Program-made: the position numbers and the translations under genes
The notes under the pieces: generated by a model
Databases searched by the model: none
What the model saw: only the letters and a program-made list of their open reading frames with translations
Told to the model about the DNA's origin: nothing
From: Candidatus Obscuribacterium magneticum
GTDB taxonomy: Bacteria; Elusimicrobiota; Elusimicrobia; F11
Direction: 5' to 3'
Assembly (NCBI GenBank): GCA_020523905.1
Contig: JAJAPZ010000006.1
Location: 18,189 to 82,188 of the forward strand
DNA: 64,000 bases
In this document: piece by piece, positions 53,293 to 64,000 of the stretch
Layout: the number at the start of each line of letters is the position of its first letter
Numbering within the stretch: the first letter of the stretch is position 1

Positions 53293-54063
53293 TTAATGGT
53301 GAGTTGAGGCCACCTGCGTTGCGGCGAAATATCTCTTCAGACCTTCCGTGAGAGCGGCGGCCATTTTCTTTTGATAGGCGGGATCCGCCAGCCTTTTCGA
53401 CTCGCTTCGATGGCTTAGGAAACCCGTTTCAATCAGGACGCCCGGCCCCTCGGCCGACTCCAAAACCGTAAACGAATCAAACCCGGCTTGGCGATCATGC
53501 GCGTTGAGCGTCTTCACCAAGCTGCGCTGGAGGATGGCTCCCAGCCGGCGTGAATTTTTCTTGTTGTAATAGGTGGCCACCCCCCTGACCCACCGCCGGG
53601 TGTCCCAGTCGCAATGGAGGGAGAGGAAGGCCTCCGCCCCGACGAGATTGGAAAAAATCGCCCGCTCTTTGTTGTCCTCCACTGCATTATAGGCCTGCCG
53701 CCAGTAATTGGAAGGCGTCCGCGTCATAAATACTTTCGCTCCCTCTTTTTCCAGGAGGTCTTTAAGCCGAGCGGCTATTTCCAGCGTCAGTTTATGCTCG
53801 GGAGGAAGCCCCTTGACGACCCGGCCCTCATTAATTTTTATACCGTCAAAATTCATGGTGCCGTGACCGGCGTCGATGACGATGCAATGTCCGAATAAGG
53901 GAGATTGGCCGAAAAGGGCCGGCGGCCGAAATAAAAGGATCGTCATTCCGGCGAAAGCCGGAATCCAGAATAATGTTAAAGACCTGGACCCCGGCTTGCG
54001 CCGGGGTGACGGCTGCCGTTGGAGTCGCATCATCATGGCAGGGGCGATTCTTTCGGTGTCCAT
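53293..54063 (-). CDS. N-acetylmuramoyl-L-alanine amidase (Amidase_3)
   Basis: This zinc amidase, up to 256 residues long, has the catalytic set in place: IVIDAGHGT (His), a Glu in the PEHKLTLEIA helix, LSLHCD (His) and VLIETGFLSH (Glu). It cleaves the bond between MurNAc and the stem peptide. The N-terminus is odd. From the longest start (54063) it is read through a REP pair, giving the hydrophobic stretch SLTLFWIPAFAGMTILLF. A later ATG at 53946 lies inside the repeat and leaves a very short leader. Export is expected, but which start serves it is unclear. It lies just downstream of the LOG-family gene. Confidence 0.85.
   Translation of the reverse strand: MDTERIAPAMMMRLQRQPSPRRKPGSRSLTLFWIPAFAGMTILLFRPPALFGQSPLFGHCIVIDAGHGTMNFDGIKINEGRVVKGLPPEHKLTLEIAARLKDLLEKEGAKVFMTRTPSNYWRQAYNAVEDNKERAIFSNLVGAEAFLSLHCDWDTRRWVRGVATYYNKKNSRRLGAILQRSLVKTLNAHDRQAGFDSFTVLESAEGPGVLIETGFLSHRSESKRLADPAYQKKMAAALTEGLKRYFAATQVASTHH
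53941..54011. repeat. REP/BIME-like inverted pair at the amidase 5' end
   Basis: Units 53941-53968 and 53984-54011 (inverted) face each other. They lie between the LOG-family stop and the amidase catalytic region and are open in the amidase frame. Confidence 0.9.
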
Positions 54064-57283: not shown

Positions 57284-57289
57284 GTGACG

Positions 57290-57340
57290 TGTCATTGCGA
57301 GGGACGGTGTCATTGCGAGCGAAGCGAAGCAATCTGTCGT
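57290..57340. repeat. GCAATCTGTC-family repeats after uvrB
   Basis: A truncated unit (57290-57302, GTCATTGCGAGGG) is followed by a fuller unit at 57309-57339 (GTCATTGCGAGCGAAGCG, ending in GCAATCTGTC). This is the same family as at 35385-35491. It lies between convergent uvrB and the defence locus. Confidence 0.85.
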
Positions 57341-57373
57341 TCAGAAAAGAGTGTTCGTCATCATTCTTGTAAA

Positions 57374-57426
57374 AGGTGCCGTAGAATAAAGGGAATGGAA
57401 CTTGCAATCTTGCAACTACGGCACCT
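57374..57426. repeat. Perfect 11-base inverted repeat at the edge of the defence locus
   Basis: AGGTGCCGTAG (57374-57384) and CTACGGCACCT (57416-57426) flank 31 bases that contain the direct repeat TTGCAA-TC-TTGCAA. It lies 17 bases beyond the stop of the rloC-like gene. It may end transcription or mark an integration boundary. Confidence 0.75.
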
Positions 57427-57442
57427 GTTCCCACGTCTTGTC

Positions 57443-59740
57443 TTAGACTTTATAAACAAGGTTAAGGGCTTCACGAATCAAAGGGATAAGTTCATCCCTA
57501 CTGAGCTTCTTCGGTGTCGTGTCGATTATCTCGCCGTGATGGGCGCTGTCTGCCACTGAACACAGGTCAAATAAACGCGGTTTCATGGCGGCATTAAGAA
57601 GTCCGGCATTGAAGAGAGTGGTCAAGAGGGTCGCGAAGCCATGCTTGGACTTGATGTCCACGGCAAGAGCGCGGTAATATTTGGTCTTGAGAACGACCTC
57701 AAAGATCTTTCGGAGATTGCCCTGCATGGTGTCGGCGGTTGGACCGAAATCCTCCCCAACATAGCGCTCCATATCCTCAACCAGACGGACATGCTCACTC
57801 TTCCGCGCCTCTTCCACGTTTAACATTTCGAGCCGACTGCCATTCTTCTTATCCGAGCGGATTTGCAGAACTTTGTTCTCCGGCATCTTATCGCAAAGCA
57901 TGTACAGAAAATCCTGCTTGTGGGTAAATACGTTGAGTTGCTTTACGGCAGGTGACAGTGCCAGGAGCAAGCGGGCCGTTGCTTCGCGCCGGGTCTCGTC
58001 GAGACTGGAAAGCGGGTCGTCGAAAAGAACGATTTGCTTGTCGAGTTCCGGGATCTTCTCCAGCGCTGCGATAAAGAAAGCAAAGGCGAGAGTGCTCTTG
58101 TCGCCTTCGCTAAGCGTGTTTTTGAAACAAGGTTCATCATCCTGGCGAGCCGACAGTGGGACTATTTGTTCAAGAATGAGGAAACCAAAATCGCTGTAAC
58201 TTTCATTTGCCCGTTCATCTGCCTTCCCGGTCAAACCTGTGATGGTAAAGTCGGTTCCTAATGTTGAGAGTAATTCGTTGATCCGCTTTTGGTCAGTATC
58301 GAAAATGGTCTTGCTGTAAATCTCGAGCTCTTTCTGTTTCGCATTCTTCTGGTTGATGAGATTGTCGGCCTCCTTCTTTGCCGCTGAATAATTGATAGCC
58401 CATCTTTTCCATTCAGGCTCAAACCGCCTTTTTATTTCTTTCTCTTTAACCAAAGCGATTTGAAGTGCAGCAACATCCGACTTCGGGAGATTGGCAATGT
58501 ACTGTTTGGCTTTCTCGACAAAAGAGGAACCCGCGGCGTTGTATCCTCCGACTGCAGTCTTCAACCCGGCAAGTTCCGCGGTAAGTGCGTCTAATTGGGA
58601 CAGGTCGGCGTCAGCATTTGGGTCTTTCTGCTTCTTCTCCAGTTCGGATTGAACCTTGCCTTTTAACGCAGCTAATCTGGATCGGCATGAGTCAACTGTT
58701 GCGACGACATCCGGTAACACAATTGTACCGAGGTAAGGTGCCCACTGGCTCAACGTCGAAAGGTTTGAATTGTGCGCAGAAACCAATGTGGTGAGGTCGT
58801 TGTCAATATTCCATCCGCTCAGCGCGGCGAGCTGTTGGGCAACACTCTGCTGGTACGTCCGGAATGCGTCGTCGAAAAACTCTTGGTATGCCTTCAACAG
58901 GCCAGTAGCGTTTTTGAGGTCTTGCCCGCAAAAAGGGCAATTCGCCTGTGTCTGGTCAATGCCCAGGCGAATAAACTCCTTTGCGTGCGTCTTGTCTTTG
59001 AAATTCCAGTTAATATGCTCAAGCACACGCTTTTCGGCGGCTTCATGCGCGGCTGTCAACTTTAGGGCGACAATCTCCTTCACGCCGGATGAATCGAACG
59101 CTGGAGCCGCGATTGTACGAGGAAAGCCAAGTCCTTGAACGATCCCTTCGGATTGTTTCGATTTGATGTCTTGTTCCAGTTGCTGAATGCGCGGGCCAAC
59201 GGCTACTTCCTCGTCTGGATAAAGCACAAGGAATGCACCGAGCGATAAGTTGATGAACCCTCCCCGATTGAACTCGTTGGCAAGATTTACAACTTCCTGA
59301 CTCTTCGCCTTTTCCTTCGCTTTCAGGTTTGAAAGCTCATCGGCCAGTTTGACCCCTTCCGCGCCTATGATGATCTTATGAATGTTCTTCTTGTGCTCAT
59401 GGCCGATTTCGTGCGCAAGGATGTTGGCTTGAATGAAAGGCACATCAAAAATCTGGATCGCTGGATATTGCCGCTCCCACCTTATTCCATCGAAAAGGTA
59501 GTTCGCGCTGTCAATCACAATCAAAGCTTCAGGTTCGGTGGCCGCGCCCAAGGTCTTTCGGGCACGCATCAACTTCGGGTCATTATCGCGAAGTGAGAGG
59601 AGAACATTGACAAGGGTTGTTTTGCCATAGGCGTTCGGGGCAAAAACAAATGTGTTCTTATGCCAGTCGAGGACGTTTTCCTTAGCGGCGAAGTTATAAA
59701 ACTTCCCGATGTTTTTTAATCGTTTGACTTTTGTGATCAT
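57443..59740 (-). CDS. rloC: RloC-like anticodon nuclease: zinc-hook ABC/SMC ATPase with C-terminal RNase domain
   Basis: This 765-residue protein has a split ABC-type ATPase: a Walker A-like loop APNAYGKT at 34-41, an LSEGDKST signature near 543, Walker B IVLFDDPLSSLDE near 568 and an H-loop VFTHKQDF. Between the halves lies a long coiled coil with a Rad50-like zinc hook, CPFC (Cys268, Cys271). The C-terminus holds Arg677-x3-Glu681 and, 53 residues later, His734/His735 (SAHHGE), matching the R-x3-E...H triad of PrrC/RloC tRNases. RloC proteins cleave tRNA at the anticodon when restriction fails. The start ATG 59740 overlaps the hsdMS stop (ATGA) and follows GGGGGAG. The first Walker A Gly is replaced by Ala. 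Confidence 0.8.
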   Translation of the reverse strand: MITKVKRLKNIGKFYNFAAKENVLDWHKNTFVFAPNAYGKTTLVNVLLSLRDNDPKLMRARKTLGAATEPEALIVIDSANYLFDGIRWERQYPAIQIFDVPFIQANILAHEIGHEHKKNIHKIIIGAEGVKLADELSNLKAKEKAKSQEVVNLANEFNRGGFINLSLGAFLVLYPDEEVAVGPRIQQLEQDIKSKQSEGIVQGLGFPRTIAAPAFDSSGVKEIVALKLTAAHEAAEKRVLEHINWNFKDKTHAKEFIRLGIDQTQANCPFCGQDLKNATGLLKAYQEFFDDAFRTYQQSVAQQLAALSGWNIDNDLTTLVSAHNSNLSTLSQWAPYLGTIVLPDVVATVDSCRSRLAALKGKVQSELEKKQKDPNADADLSQLDALTAELAGLKTAVGGYNAAGSSFVEKAKQYIANLPKSDVAALQIALVKEKEIKRRFEPEWKRWAINYSAAKKEADNLINQKNAKQKELEIYSKTIFDTDQKRINELLSTLGTDFTITGLTGKADERANESYSDFGFLILEQIVPLSARQDDEPCFKNTLSEGDKSTLAFAFFIAALEKIPELDKQIVLFDDPLSSLDETRREATARLLLALSPAVKQLNVFTHKQDFLYMLCDKMPENKVLQIRSDKKNGSRLEMLNVEEARKSEHVRLVEDMERYVGEDFGPTADTMQGNLRKIFEVVLKTKYYRALAVDIKSKHGFATLLTTLFNAGLLNAAMKPRLFDLCSVADSAHHGEIIDTTPKKLSRDELIPLIREALNLVYKV

Positions 59741-62277
59741 GACTCCCCCCAAACGCGGGCGAGAGTGGCCCGGATCTTCTTCTCAAAGCGAGCGATCAGT
59801 TCGTGGTTGGCGGCGACCAGCGCTTGCTCGGCTTCGATTTCGGCGACGATGGCTTGCTGCGTGGCGAGGGGTGGGAGTGGCAGCTTAAAGTTTAGAACAT
59901 CGGTTTTCGTGATGTTCGGGTCTTTACGGGTGCTGTTTGCGACCGTCTTCCAATAATCCTTCGACGCCACAAGAATGGCATTCAGAAAGTAGGGACTAAC
60001 TCTCGGCGTTGGAAGCAGCGCCGTCATCGCTTGGTTGTGCGTTGCTTCGATCTCAAGAACTCCAGTTCGTCCAATTTGATTGAAACCTCCATACATCGCA
60101 ATGAGGACGGTTCCCACAGGCAAGATACTGAGGTGGGTATCGTCCAATGCTTGAGGCGTTATCTTCTCGTCGGTCGATCTGATAGGGCCGTCTCTGAGGT
60201 CAAGTGTCTTTACCCACGGGATTGTCCCGTCCTTGAAATAATCAGTGCGACTGCGCGACGGCGTAGTCCCCGATTTTGTCGCAAAGAGAGCTGCAAGTGG
60301 TTCAACCGGCCAGTCGGGGTGGATGGGGATGTGGGGGCGGTAGTTGTCGAGGACGGCGCGGGCGCCGTTGATGACTTTCTGGTAGCCCTCGATCTCCGCC
60401 ACGATCTCTTTCTGCACCTCCAGCGGCGGCAGGGGGATTTGGAATCGGTAGAGAAGCGCCCCGCTGAGATTGTTGATATTTGCCCCGGCAATCTGCTCTC
60501 GCAAGAAGTCGTTGAAATGGCCGGTCGTTAGTTGCTTCAGCAAGTAGCTCGCATGAAGTCGCCCCGGCTTGACGCGGATTGCTCCCATGAATCCGCCAAA
60601 GTAGAAATCAGTGTCCTCCTTGATGAACGCGACTTTGCCGATGTGATCTTTGCTGCCGCTCGCGAGGCAAATGAAAATGTCGCCCTGCCTCAGCTTCTTC
60701 TCGTCGGCGAAATCAAGCTTCGGCGACACTTGTTTGATGTCGTCCAAGTTAAGCTCGTAGCGATCCTTGTTGATGTTGTTGGCTCGAAGAACTTTGACGC
60801 CGCCCTCTGAAACTTCGTCCTCTTTTGCGAACACAACGCCGCGCACAAGTTCGCAAATCTCGCCAAGTTCAACCGAAGGGAAAGTTGACGTGCTGATGCT
60901 TCCCTCACGATACCGTTCCCCGCTGAGATTGTAGTCACCATTCGCGGCGATCTTTTCTTTCGGCACGATCAACCCCAGCGTGGGCTGGAAGTCGGCTATC
61001 GATTCTCTAGCCCGCAGGCGGCGCAGGTATTCGCTGATTTCGGCGTGAGCTTGCGGCAAGTCGTTCTTGTCAATCTCGCGGCGCTGGGCGCCGAGGCCGA
61101 AGCCGTCGTTCTCGACCTTGAAGAAGGCGATGGTGTTGGTCTTCTTGGCCAGCGACTTGTCGAGGATAAGGATTGAGGTCTTGACGCCGGAATAGGGATT
61201 GAACACCCCCGCGGGTAGCGAGACCACGGCGACGAGGGCGTTTTCGACGAGCATCTTCCGCAGGTCTTTGTAGGCGGTCTGGCTCTGGAAGATGATCCCC
61301 TCTGGCACAATAATGCCGGCACGGCCGGTGGGTGTGAGGTGCTCGGCCATGTAGTCCACGAACAACACTTCACTGCGCTTGGATTGTACCGAGAAGCGAT
61401 TATGCGGCTTGATGCCGCCCTTTGGCGACATGAAGGGCGGATTGGCGAGGATGACGTCGGCGTATTCGTTCCATTTGTCCTGGCTGGTGAGGGTGTCGTA
61501 CTCGGCGATGTGCGGGTCGGCGAAGCCGTGCAGGTACAGGTTCACTAAGGACAGGCGCACCATGTCGGGCGAGATGTCGTAGCCCTTGATGTTCTGCGCG
61601 AGGCGGCCCTTCTCATCCGGAGTGAGCAAGTCGCCATCCCTCACCCCTGCCCCTCTCCCAGAGGGAGAGGGAGTCGATGTGTTGGCTTTGAGGATGTGCT
61701 TGTAGGACGAGATCAGGAACCCCGCCGTGCCGCAGGCCGGGTCAAGCACGGTCTCGGTCTTCTTCGGATCGACGATTTCAACCATGAAATCGATAATGTG
61801 GCGCGGGGTGCGGAACTGTCCGGCATCGCCCTGGGAGCCGAGCACGGAGAGCAGATACTCGAAGGCGTCGCCCAAGCGTTCCGAGTGGTCGTAGTTGAAC
61901 TCATCTATGACCTTGAGGAAGGCGCGGAGCGTCTCCGGGTCGCGGTAGGGCAGATAGGCGTTCTTGAAGATGTCGCGGAAAAGAAGCGGAATGCCGGGGT
62001 TCTCCGGCATCTTGGCGATGGCCTCGCCGTAGAGGTTCAGGGTTTCGTGGCCGCCGAGGCCTGAGCGCATCAGCTTGGCCCAGCCGTAGCGGGCAAACTC
62101 CTTGGCGAAAAATTTGCGCTTCCCGCCGAACTCCTCGCTCTCGGCGTCCATGTCGTCCATGAACTTGTAGATGAGGGCGATGGTGATCTGCTCAACCTGA
62201 CTTTTCGGGTCGGGCACTTTGCCCACGAGGATGTCGCGGGCGGTGTCGATGCGGCGTTTGGTGTCGGTGTCGAGCAT
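59737..62277 (-). CDS. Type I restriction-modification fused methyltransferase-specificity protein (HsdM-HsdS)
   Basis: This 846-residue fusion has an HsdM part (about 1-470) with an N-terminal helical domain, SAM motif DPACGTAGF at 179-187 and the catalytic NPPF at 279-282 (N6-adenine class). The HsdS part (about 480-846) has two target-recognition regions, each ending in a conserved helix start (IPLPPLEVQKEIVAEIEGYQ and LPLPPLATQQAIVAEIEAEQ). HsdM and HsdS are usually separate; the fusion fixes subunit ratio and specificity. Residues about 200-214 are read from a palindromic repeat. ATG 62277 follows AGGA and leaves 10 bases after the nuclease stop. A 15-codon upstream extension overlaps that gene. 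Confidence 0.93.
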   Translation of the reverse strand: MLDTDTKRRIDTARDILVGKVPDPKSQVEQITIALIYKFMDDMDAESEEFGGKRKFFAKEFARYGWAKLMRSGLGGHETLNLYGEAIAKMPENPGIPLLFRDIFKNAYLPYRDPETLRAFLKVIDEFNYDHSERLGDAFEYLLSVLGSQGDAGQFRTPRHIIDFMVEIVDPKKTETVLDPACGTAGFLISSYKHILKANTSTPSPSGRGAGVRDGDLLTPDEKGRLAQNIKGYDISPDMVRLSLVNLYLHGFADPHIAEYDTLTSQDKWNEYADVILANPPFMSPKGGIKPHNRFSVQSKRSEVLFVDYMAEHLTPTGRAGIIVPEGIIFQSQTAYKDLRKMLVENALVAVVSLPAGVFNPYSGVKTSILILDKSLAKKTNTIAFFKVENDGFGLGAQRREIDKNDLPQAHAEISEYLRRLRARESIADFQPTLGLIVPKEKIAANGDYNLSGERYREGSISTSTFPSVELGEICELVRGVVFAKEDEVSEGGVKVLRANNINKDRYELNLDDIKQVSPKLDFADEKKLRQGDIFICLASGSKDHIGKVAFIKEDTDFYFGGFMGAIRVKPGRLHASYLLKQLTTGHFNDFLREQIAGANINNLSGALLYRFQIPLPPLEVQKEIVAEIEGYQKVINGARAVLDNYRPHIPIHPDWPVEPLAALFATKSGTTPSRSRTDYFKDGTIPWVKTLDLRDGPIRSTDEKITPQALDDTHLSILPVGTVLIAMYGGFNQIGRTGVLEIEATHNQAMTALLPTPRVSPYFLNAILVASKDYWKTVANSTRKDPNITKTDVLNFKLPLPPLATQQAIVAEIEAEQALVAANHELIARFEKKIRATLARVWGES
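61637..61672. repeat. CTCTCCC/GGGAGAG palindrome inside hsdM
   Basis: The palindrome CCCTCTCCCAGAGGGAGAGG and its flanking ACCCCTGC form a short REP-like element read in frame as a Ser/Pro/Gly-rich insert (TPSPSGRGAGVR) after SAM motif I. It differs from the two other repeat families in the window. Confidence 0.75.
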
Positions 62278-62287
62278 TATTTTATCC

Positions 62288-63505
62288 TTATCTTCCGGTT
62301 GGCAGAATGGGGCGGATGACATCCCTCAGTTGCCGGGCGGTCGGCAGTTTGCCTTTGAGTTCAGGCGGGAGTTTGGATTGAAGATGGTATTCGGCCACGC
62401 CAATGGGGTTGGTCTTGCTCTTCAGGGAGAATTCGACTTCCAGATTGTCCTTCTCCGCGCAAAGGATGATACCGATCGAGGGGTGATCATCGGGTGCGCG
62501 TTCCTTTTCATTTAATAAGTTGAGATAGAAATCCATCTTGCCGGCATACTCGGGTTCAAAGGGGCCTACCTTGAGTTCAAACGCCACGAGGGCTTTAATA
62601 AACCGGTGGTAGAAGAGCAGGTCAATGAAATACTCCTTCTGCCCCAACACCAAGCGGTGTTGGCGGCCCACAAAGCAAAAACCATAACCGAGTTCGAGAA
62701 TGAATTCGCGCAATCGCTCAAGGAGCCGGTCTTCCAGTTGCCGCTCCTTGATTGCGCGGCGGATGCCGAGAAATTCGAGGTTGTAACGGCTCTTGAGCGC
62801 CTCTTCGGCCTGCTCGGCAAGGAATTCCGGCAAGGCGAGTGGAAAGTTGTGCGTCTTCTTTTCTGTCACCGCTCGCTCATACGCGCCGGCTTTGATCTGG
62901 TTTAACAGGACATTACGGGCCCAGCCAAAGCGCGCGGTGGCCCGGAGGTAGTAAAGCAACTCTGGAGCAGATTTGGTTTTACCCAGAAGAAGGACGTGAT
63001 GCCCCCAAGGAACAGCCGCCGCCAATTCTCGCACAGCTTGTGCGAGAATTGGACTCCCCTCAGTTGCCACCGGAACAGTTTTTCTTTCTGGAACAACTTG
63101 CTCCAGAAATGAGGGCACCCCCTGTCGAGGAGAACGGTTTTCAAGTTCTCGCGCAGCCTGTGCGAGAATTGCCTCACTGGAGTATACCGTGTGGAGTTGG
63201 CGCATCCGCCAGACGTTTGCCGGGGAGAAGCCCGCCATGGCAGGGAACTCCCTCTGCAAGTCTTTCGCCACCATTTCAACCACCGAATCGCCCCAGTTCA
63301 ATAACGCCTGTTTTTCCACGATGGCCCGGCCGATATCCCAGTAGAGCAGGATCAGGTCGCGATTGACCGCGCGTGCGGCGGAAAGACGGGCGGCCTGAAT
63401 GCGAATTTTGAGGGCAGACAGGAACTGATCGTAATCGGCACCCGCAATAACGGCGCTTTTCATGCCGGTGTGTTTCTCACGTTCAGATGGCTTGCGTTTG
63501 TTCAT
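62288..63505 (-). CDS. DUF1016/YhcG-type PD-(D/E)XK nuclease protein
   Basis: This protein of about 405 residues has an N-terminal DUF1016 domain (VNRDLILLYWDIGRAIVEKQ; FSPANVWRMRQLHTVY; VPWGHHVLLLGK). The C-terminal PD-(D/E)XK-like core shows FIDLLFYHRFIKALVAFELKVG, giving the Asp and E-x-K. Such proteins are often found in type I restriction loci; their role is unproven. The start is uncertain: ATG 63505, TTG 63520 (overlapping the hsdR stop) or ATG 63463. Two near-identical palindromes encode the similar stretches ILAQAVREL and ILAQAAREL. It is the gene between hsdR and hsdMS. Confidence 0.85.
   Translation of the reverse strand: MNKRKPSEREKHTGMKSAVIAGADYDQFLSALKIRIQAARLSAARAVNRDLILLYWDIGRAIVEKQALLNWGDSVVEMVAKDLQREFPAMAGFSPANVWRMRQLHTVYSSEAILAQAARELENRSPRQGVPSFLEQVVPERKTVPVATEGSPILAQAVRELAAAVPWGHHVLLLGKTKSAPELLYYLRATARFGWARNVLLNQIKAGAYERAVTEKKTHNFPLALPEFLAEQAEEALKSRYNLEFLGIRRAIKERQLEDRLLERLREFILELGYGFCFVGRQHRLVLGQKEYFIDLLFYHRFIKALVAFELKVGPFEPEYAGKMDFYLNLLNEKERAPDDHPSIGIILCAEKDNLEVEFSLKSKTNPIGVAEYHLQSKLPPELKGKLPTARQLRDVIRPILPTGR
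63024..63055. repeat. Perfect 14-base palindrome inside the DUF1016 gene
   Basis: CCAATTCTCGCACA and its exact complement flank a GCT loop, reading as ILAQAVREL on the minus strand. A related, imperfect copy lies at about 63146-63174 and reads as ILAQAAREL. The pair brackets a 35-40-residue stretch of the protein. Confidence 0.8.
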
Positions 63506-63509
63506 ATTC

Positions 63510-63950
63510 TCATGCGGCAAATTGGTTTAAGGTGACGTAATCCTTGATGTATTCAGGGATGCGCGTGCGGTACTTCTGCGGCACGGCGCGGAAGTCGCGG
63601 GTGGAGAAGGCCGGGTTGGTGGCCAGATCGGTGAAGTGGCGGCTTTCGATGATGTGGCGAACATGATCACTGGTGACGTAGGCCTTGAAGTAGGTCTTAA
63701 TCGCCGGGATGGCCTCGGCCTCTTCGGGCTTGGTATCGGAGACGAACTTGGCGAACTCCTCTTCCAGCAGTTCGTTCTTGGACTTGAAGCGCGGGATGAG
63801 GCCGAAGATCTTTTCGAGGATTTCGCGCAGGGTCAGGCGGCGATCCACGGCGGCGGCTTTACGCAACTTGTCGAGAGTGTAATACTCCTCCGGCTTGTTG
63901 AAGACCTCGCGGTTCACGTAGTCAATGACGCGGTCCCATTGTCCTGCCTC
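63510..63950 (-). pseudogene. hsdR: Type I restriction endonuclease HsdR, C-terminal part only
   Basis: About 146 residues are read from roughly 63950 to the TGA at 63510-63512. They match the C-terminal helical domain of EcoEI-type HsdR: EAGQWDRVIDYVNREVFNKPEEYYTLDK, LTLREILEKIFGLIPRFKSK, and TRIPEYIKDYVTLNQFA. The motor and nuclease domains are absent on this strand. Upstream of about 63950 the minus-strand frame stays open to the window end but loses resemblance (GRGVVEPLQVVPGRGG). A GTG at 63917 is the only start-like codon visible and is not a true start. HsdR supplies translocation and cleavage in type I systems. If the break is real, restriction is lost or phase-switched. It may instead be an assembly junction. 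Confidence 0.8.
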
Positions 63951-64000
63951 ACCGCCACGCCCCGGGACTACCTGAAGCGGTTCGACAACGCCGCGCCCAA
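63948..64000 (+). pseudogene. hsdR: HsdR motor-domain fragment on the opposite strand
   Basis: The plus strand reads LTATPRDYLKRFDNAAP from 63948 to the window end. LTATP is helicase motif III of the HsdR motor domain, and the residues after it fit the same family from memory. It faces the HsdR C-terminus encoded on the minus strand, and the two fragments meet at 63948-63951. The piece is short, so the call is tentative; it presumably continues beyond base 64000. Confidence 0.5.

Follow-up and report, generated by a model that had tools for sequence, protein, structure and literature searches.

The end of the window, by which we mean the whole 64,000-nucleotide stretch of DNA analysed, carries four genes, all on the minus strand: the tail of hsdR, a DUF1016/YhcG gene, an hsdM-hsdS fusion (hsdMS) and a gene for an RloC-type ATPase. 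All four are present on the same strand and in the order that an earlier note on this DNA had given. Gene starts were corrected from the sequence and from protein lengths given in database copies of the window itself, and the features are as follows.

57443-59740, minus strand: RloC-type ABC ATPase of 765 aa, predicted anticodon nuclease (PF13166, E 2.1e-24; PADLOC PDC-S06; motifs)
57536-57712, minus strand: predicted nuclease triad, R677, E681 and H734 or H735 (invariance in alignments A2 and A3)
58928-58939, minus strand: CPFC zinc-hook motif, residues 268-271 (invariant residues; flanking helices in the model)
59737-59740, minus strand: ATGA in which the hsdMS stop codon overlaps the rloC start codon (junction sequence)
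59737-62277, minus strand: HsdM-HsdS fusion of 846 aa with two specificity domains (PF02384, E 2.5e-49; PF01420 twice, E 1e-28)
62288-63505, minus strand: DUF1016/YhcG family protein of 405 aa, predicted PD-(D/E)XK nuclease, an accessory gene between hsdR and hsdMS (PF17761, E 1.8e-34; PF06250, E 8.2e-58; PADLOC PDC-S02)
63510-63945, minus strand: C-terminal end of hsdR, the gene being broken by the end of contig C104 (match to the HsdR of locus L004)
63946-64000, no strand assigned: 55-base contig-end piece, matching an internal part of hsdR in inverted orientation (100% identity to positions 431-377 of L128 on contig C137)

The type I restriction-modification (R-M) operon with an M-S fusion that the earlier note described is borne out by an N6 methylase, a two-TRD specificity part and HsdR motifs. 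Methylase and specificity functions lie in one fused chain, 846 aa long in the database copy, which carries DPACGTAG, NPPF and two Methylase_S stretches. The operon shares its parts with the type I systems EcoKI and EcoR124 and their PDB relatives (HsdR with helicase and HSDR_N, an N6 methylase, a two-TRD specificity part) but differs from them in having M and S in a single chain. Four nucleotides separate the hsdR stop from the DUF1016 start and 10 the DUF1016 stop from the hsdMS start, and the ATGA junction claimed for the last two genes is found as an overlap, with GGGGGGAG preceding the ATGA shared by the hsdMS stop and the rloC start at 59737-59740. A MADS system was considered and rejected, given that MAD2 reached 105 of 720 bits and MAD5 36 of 400 bits, both under the cut-off. 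Near HsdM residue 218 (in an 861-aa frame) lies an in-frame palindrome, CCCTCTCCCTCTGGGAGAGGG, coding for PSPSGRG in the methylase; this exact pattern occurs once in the genome.

The window ends with contig C104, inside hsdR, and the tail within it has no Pfam match by itself; residues 17-162 of its frame are 90% identical to residues 700-845 of the L004 HsdR. HsdR residues 1-478 lie at the end of contig C137 and are 91% identical to the same L004 protein. This part carries ResIII (E 1.7e-38), HSDR_N (E 6.7e-07) and a D...E-A-K stretch; helicase and nuclease motif are both present in a gene that is in two pieces, and about 220 residues between the C137 and C104 pieces are missing from the assembly. 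Because both pieces match one HsdR at approximately 90%, we take the two contigs to belong together, in a draft genome (completeness 71%, contamination 13%). The final 55 bases of C104 (63946-64000) are an exact inverted copy of an internal hsdR piece on C137, the true HsdR tail running from about 63945, and are most simply an assembly artefact. The nearest ORF preceding hsdR on C137, on the same strand and about 260 nt off, reads like a PilT-type ATPase.

The RloC-like protein of the earlier note bears the ABC motifs, the CXXC hook and the R-X3-E...H triad, and the assignment survives the profile searches, though no library model is named RloC: the PADLOC matches are to PDC-S06 (E 5.2e-68) and, in the ATPase part, to PrrC (E 2.8e-9). 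Walker A, signature, Walker B and linchpin His are kept in at least 97% of the 120 homologues listed, and the first Walker A glycine is an alanine in the window's RloC clade. C268, P269 and C271 of the CPFC hook are invariant among 24 aligned sequences, and in the predicted structure long helices flank the motif on both sides, as a coiled-coil insert. R677, E681 and H735 are invariant in alignment A2 and R677, E681 and H734 in A3, giving a triad spacing of X52 (H734) or X53 (H735) in which the aligned histidine varies with the alignment. The alignment of 24 family members, seven as distant as 22-27% identity, keeps these hallmarks, and on this basis the protein is predicted to be a tRNA anticodon nuclease. 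Its sequence alone gave no PDB sequence match. The profile reaches Rad50 at E 0.0027, and fold comparison returned a weak to middling match to a Rad50-like head in a search that covered mainly residues 1-649. The structure model of the C-terminal domain is of low to middling confidence; a HEPN-type fold is named as a feature of the RloC C-terminal domain in passages of PMC3710099.

Published RloC, as described in the passages of Davidov and Kaufmann 2008 (PMC2610378) cited here, shares with it the ABC motifs, a coiled-coil insert bearing the CXXC hook, and the R-X3-E...H triad. The 765 aa of the window's protein fall inside the published 658-897, its triad spacing of 52 or 53 is at the limit of the published 36-52 or one over, and its linkage to a type I R-M locus is of a kind called rare there (8 of 72). 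With PrrC of EcoprrI, as portrayed in parts of PMC2610378 and PMC3710099, it has in common a predicted anticodon nuclease and an ABC ATPase in a type I operon. We nevertheless reject PrrC identity: the protein is twice the size, at 765 aa with a CXXC insert against 341-416 aa without a hook insert, and hhalign of the clade's C-terminal part against nine PrrC proteins (ten loci were taken, one without a protein; L119 is short) gave no match, at a probability of 0.3%.

The earlier note had allowed for a gene order that was an artefact of one contig. We reject this for the order, since hsdMS-rloC recurs in other genomes, and accept it for the last 55 bases of C104. Scanning species genomes for RloC with alignment A1 and two peptide patterns gave nine loci, six of which have the same RloC clade beside hsdMS. 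The rloC gene directly adjoins the M-S fusion in L003 (Nitrospinota), L004 (Smithellaceae), L005 (Rhodoferax), L006 (Verrucomicrobia) and L010 (Bacteroidetes), and one gene separates the two in L009 (Lentisphaerae); L005 and L010 are cut inside hsdMS, and the L010 rloC and the L003 hsdR each read as two frames. In L007, L008 and L011, the last cut by a contig end, no hsdMS adjoins rloC. When the window's genome was searched together with 59 relatives (60 genomes in all), the protein was found in the former only, one other genome having a weak 79-residue match. The gene is rare and patchy.

Database scoring gave at least 7,999 relatives of the fusion. M-S fusions were sought in five phyla with the best candidates per genome scored, and the counts are hence lower bounds: at least 8 of 340 genomes at E 1e-100 and, at E 1e-120, at least 4 of 398, 12 of 395, 15 of 247 and 12 of 288. 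Neighbourhoods were taken for these matches except in three genomes with fragments (G917, G1030 and G1503), and two plasmid loci picked from 2421 matching records were added; the survey comprises 52 loci, including the window and the six RloC-selected loci. We call the interval between hsdR and hsdMS place A and the next ORF after hsdMS place B. Place A is filled by a same-strand ORF of at least 80 aa in 15 of the 46 loci with HsdR and, annotated via representatives of similarity groups, holds 23S_rRNA_IVP-like, KilA-N, ORF6N, PDDEXK_3, RhuM or Y1 transposase genes, and DUF1016 in the window only. The gene at place B follows hsdMS on the same strand at a distance of up to 30 nt in 34 of 49 loci, of up to 120 nt in 40 and at any distance in 45; with the seven RloC loci left out, the 30-nt count is 27 of 42. 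On the other side of the operon, before hsdR, the same-strand neighbour is within 30 nt in 6 of 39 loci, within 120 nt in 15 of 39 and at any distance in 27 of 39. Three loci cut by contig ends were dropped from the place-B count, L091 and L092 are identical, and ORFs were taken at full length, which shortens the gaps equally on both sides.

Besides the window's RloC clade and a second RloC lineage (L102; AAA_13, E 1.7e-186), place B holds Schlafen AlbA_2 (L055), DUF6602 (L091), AbiP2 (L025; E 8.1e-206), Ppl (L023, an E. coli plasmid locus; E 7.6e-137), DUF3644 (L087), a HamA-like PDC-M23A gene with a helicase (L096), DUF4917/PDC-S21 (L097), FRG (L101), AAA_21 followed by DUF3226 (L103), ABC-3C CTD10 (L106), Bro-N followed by DUF1016_N (L050), MerR (L026), a GMT-like wHTH (L099) and a 245-aa family (L022, L048, L058, L093 and L094). 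PADLOC matches among them include AbiP2, Ppl, PDC-S21 and PDC-M23A, and many of these unrelated genes are likely defensive. Part of the place-B genes were searched, that of L054 being left out, and those of L009, L015, L024, L027, L051, L088, L089, L104 and L108 have no match of any kind. At L023 (plasmid pL37-4, 5427-12975), a conjugative plasmid carries HsdR, a 677-aa HsdM and Ppl one after another, Ppl being a named defence gene that fills the final position of the chassis.

The 245-aa family occurs in eight loci, after hsdMS in the five just given and after rloC in L004, L005 and L102. Its R-N-(D/N)-x-A-H stretch is invariant in all six aligned members and looks HEPN-like when set beside the RX4H motif given in passages of PMC3710099, and the family is possibly an unnamed HEPN-type RNase. 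The L022 representative has no Pfam or PADLOC match, its structure model is poor (pLDDT 51), and the family has no Fic motif; a Fic-type motif, HLFVDGNGR, lies in a short downstream gene of L004.

The place-B gene varies even among chassis with HsdR and HsdM 87-98% identical. In a close group of five (L087, L089, L093, L094 and L095; HsdM 92-98% and HsdR 87-94% identical), it is variously a DUF3644 gene, a gene for roughly 410 aa with no match, or a member of the 245-aa family; the fusions of L089 and L095 read as only about 645 aa, and an internal stop is counted in some matches of this group. The window and L054 are 91% identical in HsdM and 84% in the available HsdR tail, but neither place A nor place B agrees between them. 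In a tree built from 50 HsdM rows, without L005 and L010, placing the five RloC rows takes five changes against a shuffled mean of 4.8, with 500 of 500 shuffles as low, and at least three of these changes are forced by well-supported branches; the RloC rows are not clustered on the tree, and five rows show no more than that. Most listed pairs share less than 50% identity in the two halves of the specificity part, though some reach as much as 94%; the last 45 residues of that part are mostly well conserved.

With roughly evenly balanced confidence, we read the locus as a type I R-M operon with an overlapping RloC-type backup whose trigger is self-contained. HsdR-HsdMS would cut unmodified DNA, the ATGA overlap would keep RloC production in step with HsdMS, and the Rad50-like ATPase and zinc hook of RloC would keep it in check. 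RloC would be activated by DNA ends or damage and not by coming free of a physical contact with the R-M complex, and by cutting tRNA anticodons it would act as a backup that halts translation when restriction fails against a phage. The earlier note took triggering of the PrrC kind for granted. Since place B is occupied by many unrelated genes, some of them presumably from systems that work alone, a shared guard contact is disfavoured and triggering by RloC itself is the simpler reading. The A. baylyi RloC reacts to an inducer of DNA breaks, as reported in passages of PMC3874168 and PMC12707154. Counter to a self-contained backup in this operon, the same RloC clade stands away from hsdMS in three of nine loci, a same-strand neighbour is frequent before hsdR too (27 of 39, within 120 nt in 15 of 39), several place-B genes match no defence family, HsdR is known in this genome in two pieces only, and the RloC C-terminal domain, with no profile match to the nine PrrC proteins, lies outside the reach of the fold search.

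A guard in the style of PrrC, in which RloC would be silenced by binding HsdR-HsdMS and freed when a phage anti-restriction factor disables the complex, is rather unlikely. PrrC is guarded in this way by EcoprrI (parts of PMC2610378 and PMC3506569), rloC overlaps hsdMS, and the two recur side by side in six of nine loci; however, many unrelated genes at the same place on similar chassis make a shared contact less simple, three of the nine clade loci have no adjoining hsdMS, and the protein has the hook and the size of RloC, not of PrrC. We hold it unlikely that the arrangement is co-location only, with defence genes gathering behind hsdMS and travelling along while RloC and R-M remain uncoupled. 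The scatter of RloC rows on the HsdM tree, the three clade loci that stand alone and the general clustering of defence genes in islands (passages of PMC12707154) would fit this, but the same-strand neighbour no more than 30 nt away, seen behind hsdMS in 34 of 49 loci and ahead of hsdR in 6 of 39, and the ATGA or longer overlaps with rloC, argue for more than shared location. It is decidedly doubtful that HsdR-HsdMS is a general chassis with a docking slot, licensing any effector after hsdMS (anticodon nuclease, reverse transcriptase, Ppl, HEPN RNase and others); if true, one shared signal would turn restriction failure into many kinds of abortive response.

The layered defence suggested in the earlier note is supported as an idea, and such layering of R-M and RloC was already proposed in 2013 by Anantharaman and co-workers, for R-M neighbourhoods in which Doc or RhuM genes accompany RloC-like ones (PMC3710099). 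R-M, RloC-like and further accessory genes are common to both; relative to the passages of that paper cited here, the window adds an M-S fusion, DUF1016 upstream and a surveyed variable place after hsdMS. Makarova and co-workers proposed immunity-dormancy coupling in 2012, with PrrC as the model (parts of PMC3506569), and backup effectors around BREX were described in 2026; in the cited parts of that report (PMC12839542), varied auxiliary nucleases likewise stand beside a methylation-based defence core, which is another system, whereas the window's core is a type I R-M chassis. Full-text searches of open-licence PMC listed no title on a type I family with fused M and S and an interchangeable gene behind hsdMS, and the new part here is this M-S-fusion chassis with its exchangeable slot. 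The gene directly after hsdMS in the M-S-fusion family is a defined place to seek second-line phage defences, and unannotated genes there become defence candidates. Because similar chassis occur with and without RloC, coupling of RloC to restriction, as in PrrC, is now testable.

The DUF1016 protein carries both the DUF1016_N and the YhcG_C PD-(D/E)XK domain (119 and 195 bits against cut-offs of 32.8 and 32.5), with the D...E-X-K stretch intact, and is best seen as an exchangeable accessory, one of several before hsdMS. The earlier note's idea of a third effector or alternative cleavage subunit is very improbable: same strand, short spacing, the intact D...E-X-K stretch, the listing of the family by PADLOC as a defence candidate and the DUF1016_N piece after hsdMS in L050 favour it, but the gene is absent from all four sibling cassettes with the same RloC and a readable place (L003, L004, L006 and L009; L005 and L010, cut by contig ends, were left out) and from 14 of the 15 occupied hsdR-hsdMS intervals in the 46 loci with HsdR, the exception being the window, and HsdR has its own nuclease motif, an HSDR_N with a D...E-A-K stretch. 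Because it is absent from the four readable siblings, DUF1016 is no fixed cleavage subunit, and we reject that role for a gene swapped or missing in relatives.

Within the DUF1016 gene, positions 63026-63171 hold three palindromic copies, each about 26 nt long and spaced 60 nt from the next, that code for (I/F)L-x-Q-x-V-x-E; with up to three mismatches allowed, the palindrome of the two closest copies occurs nowhere else in the genome. Similar peptide repeats, compared as protein, occur in the linker between the two domains in most of the 40 relatives listed. Elsewhere in the window, at 53293-54063 and 57284-57445, ORF stretches read PSPRRKPGSRSLTLFWIPAFAGMT and CHCERSEAI, which we take to resemble dispersed palindromic elements of other genomes.
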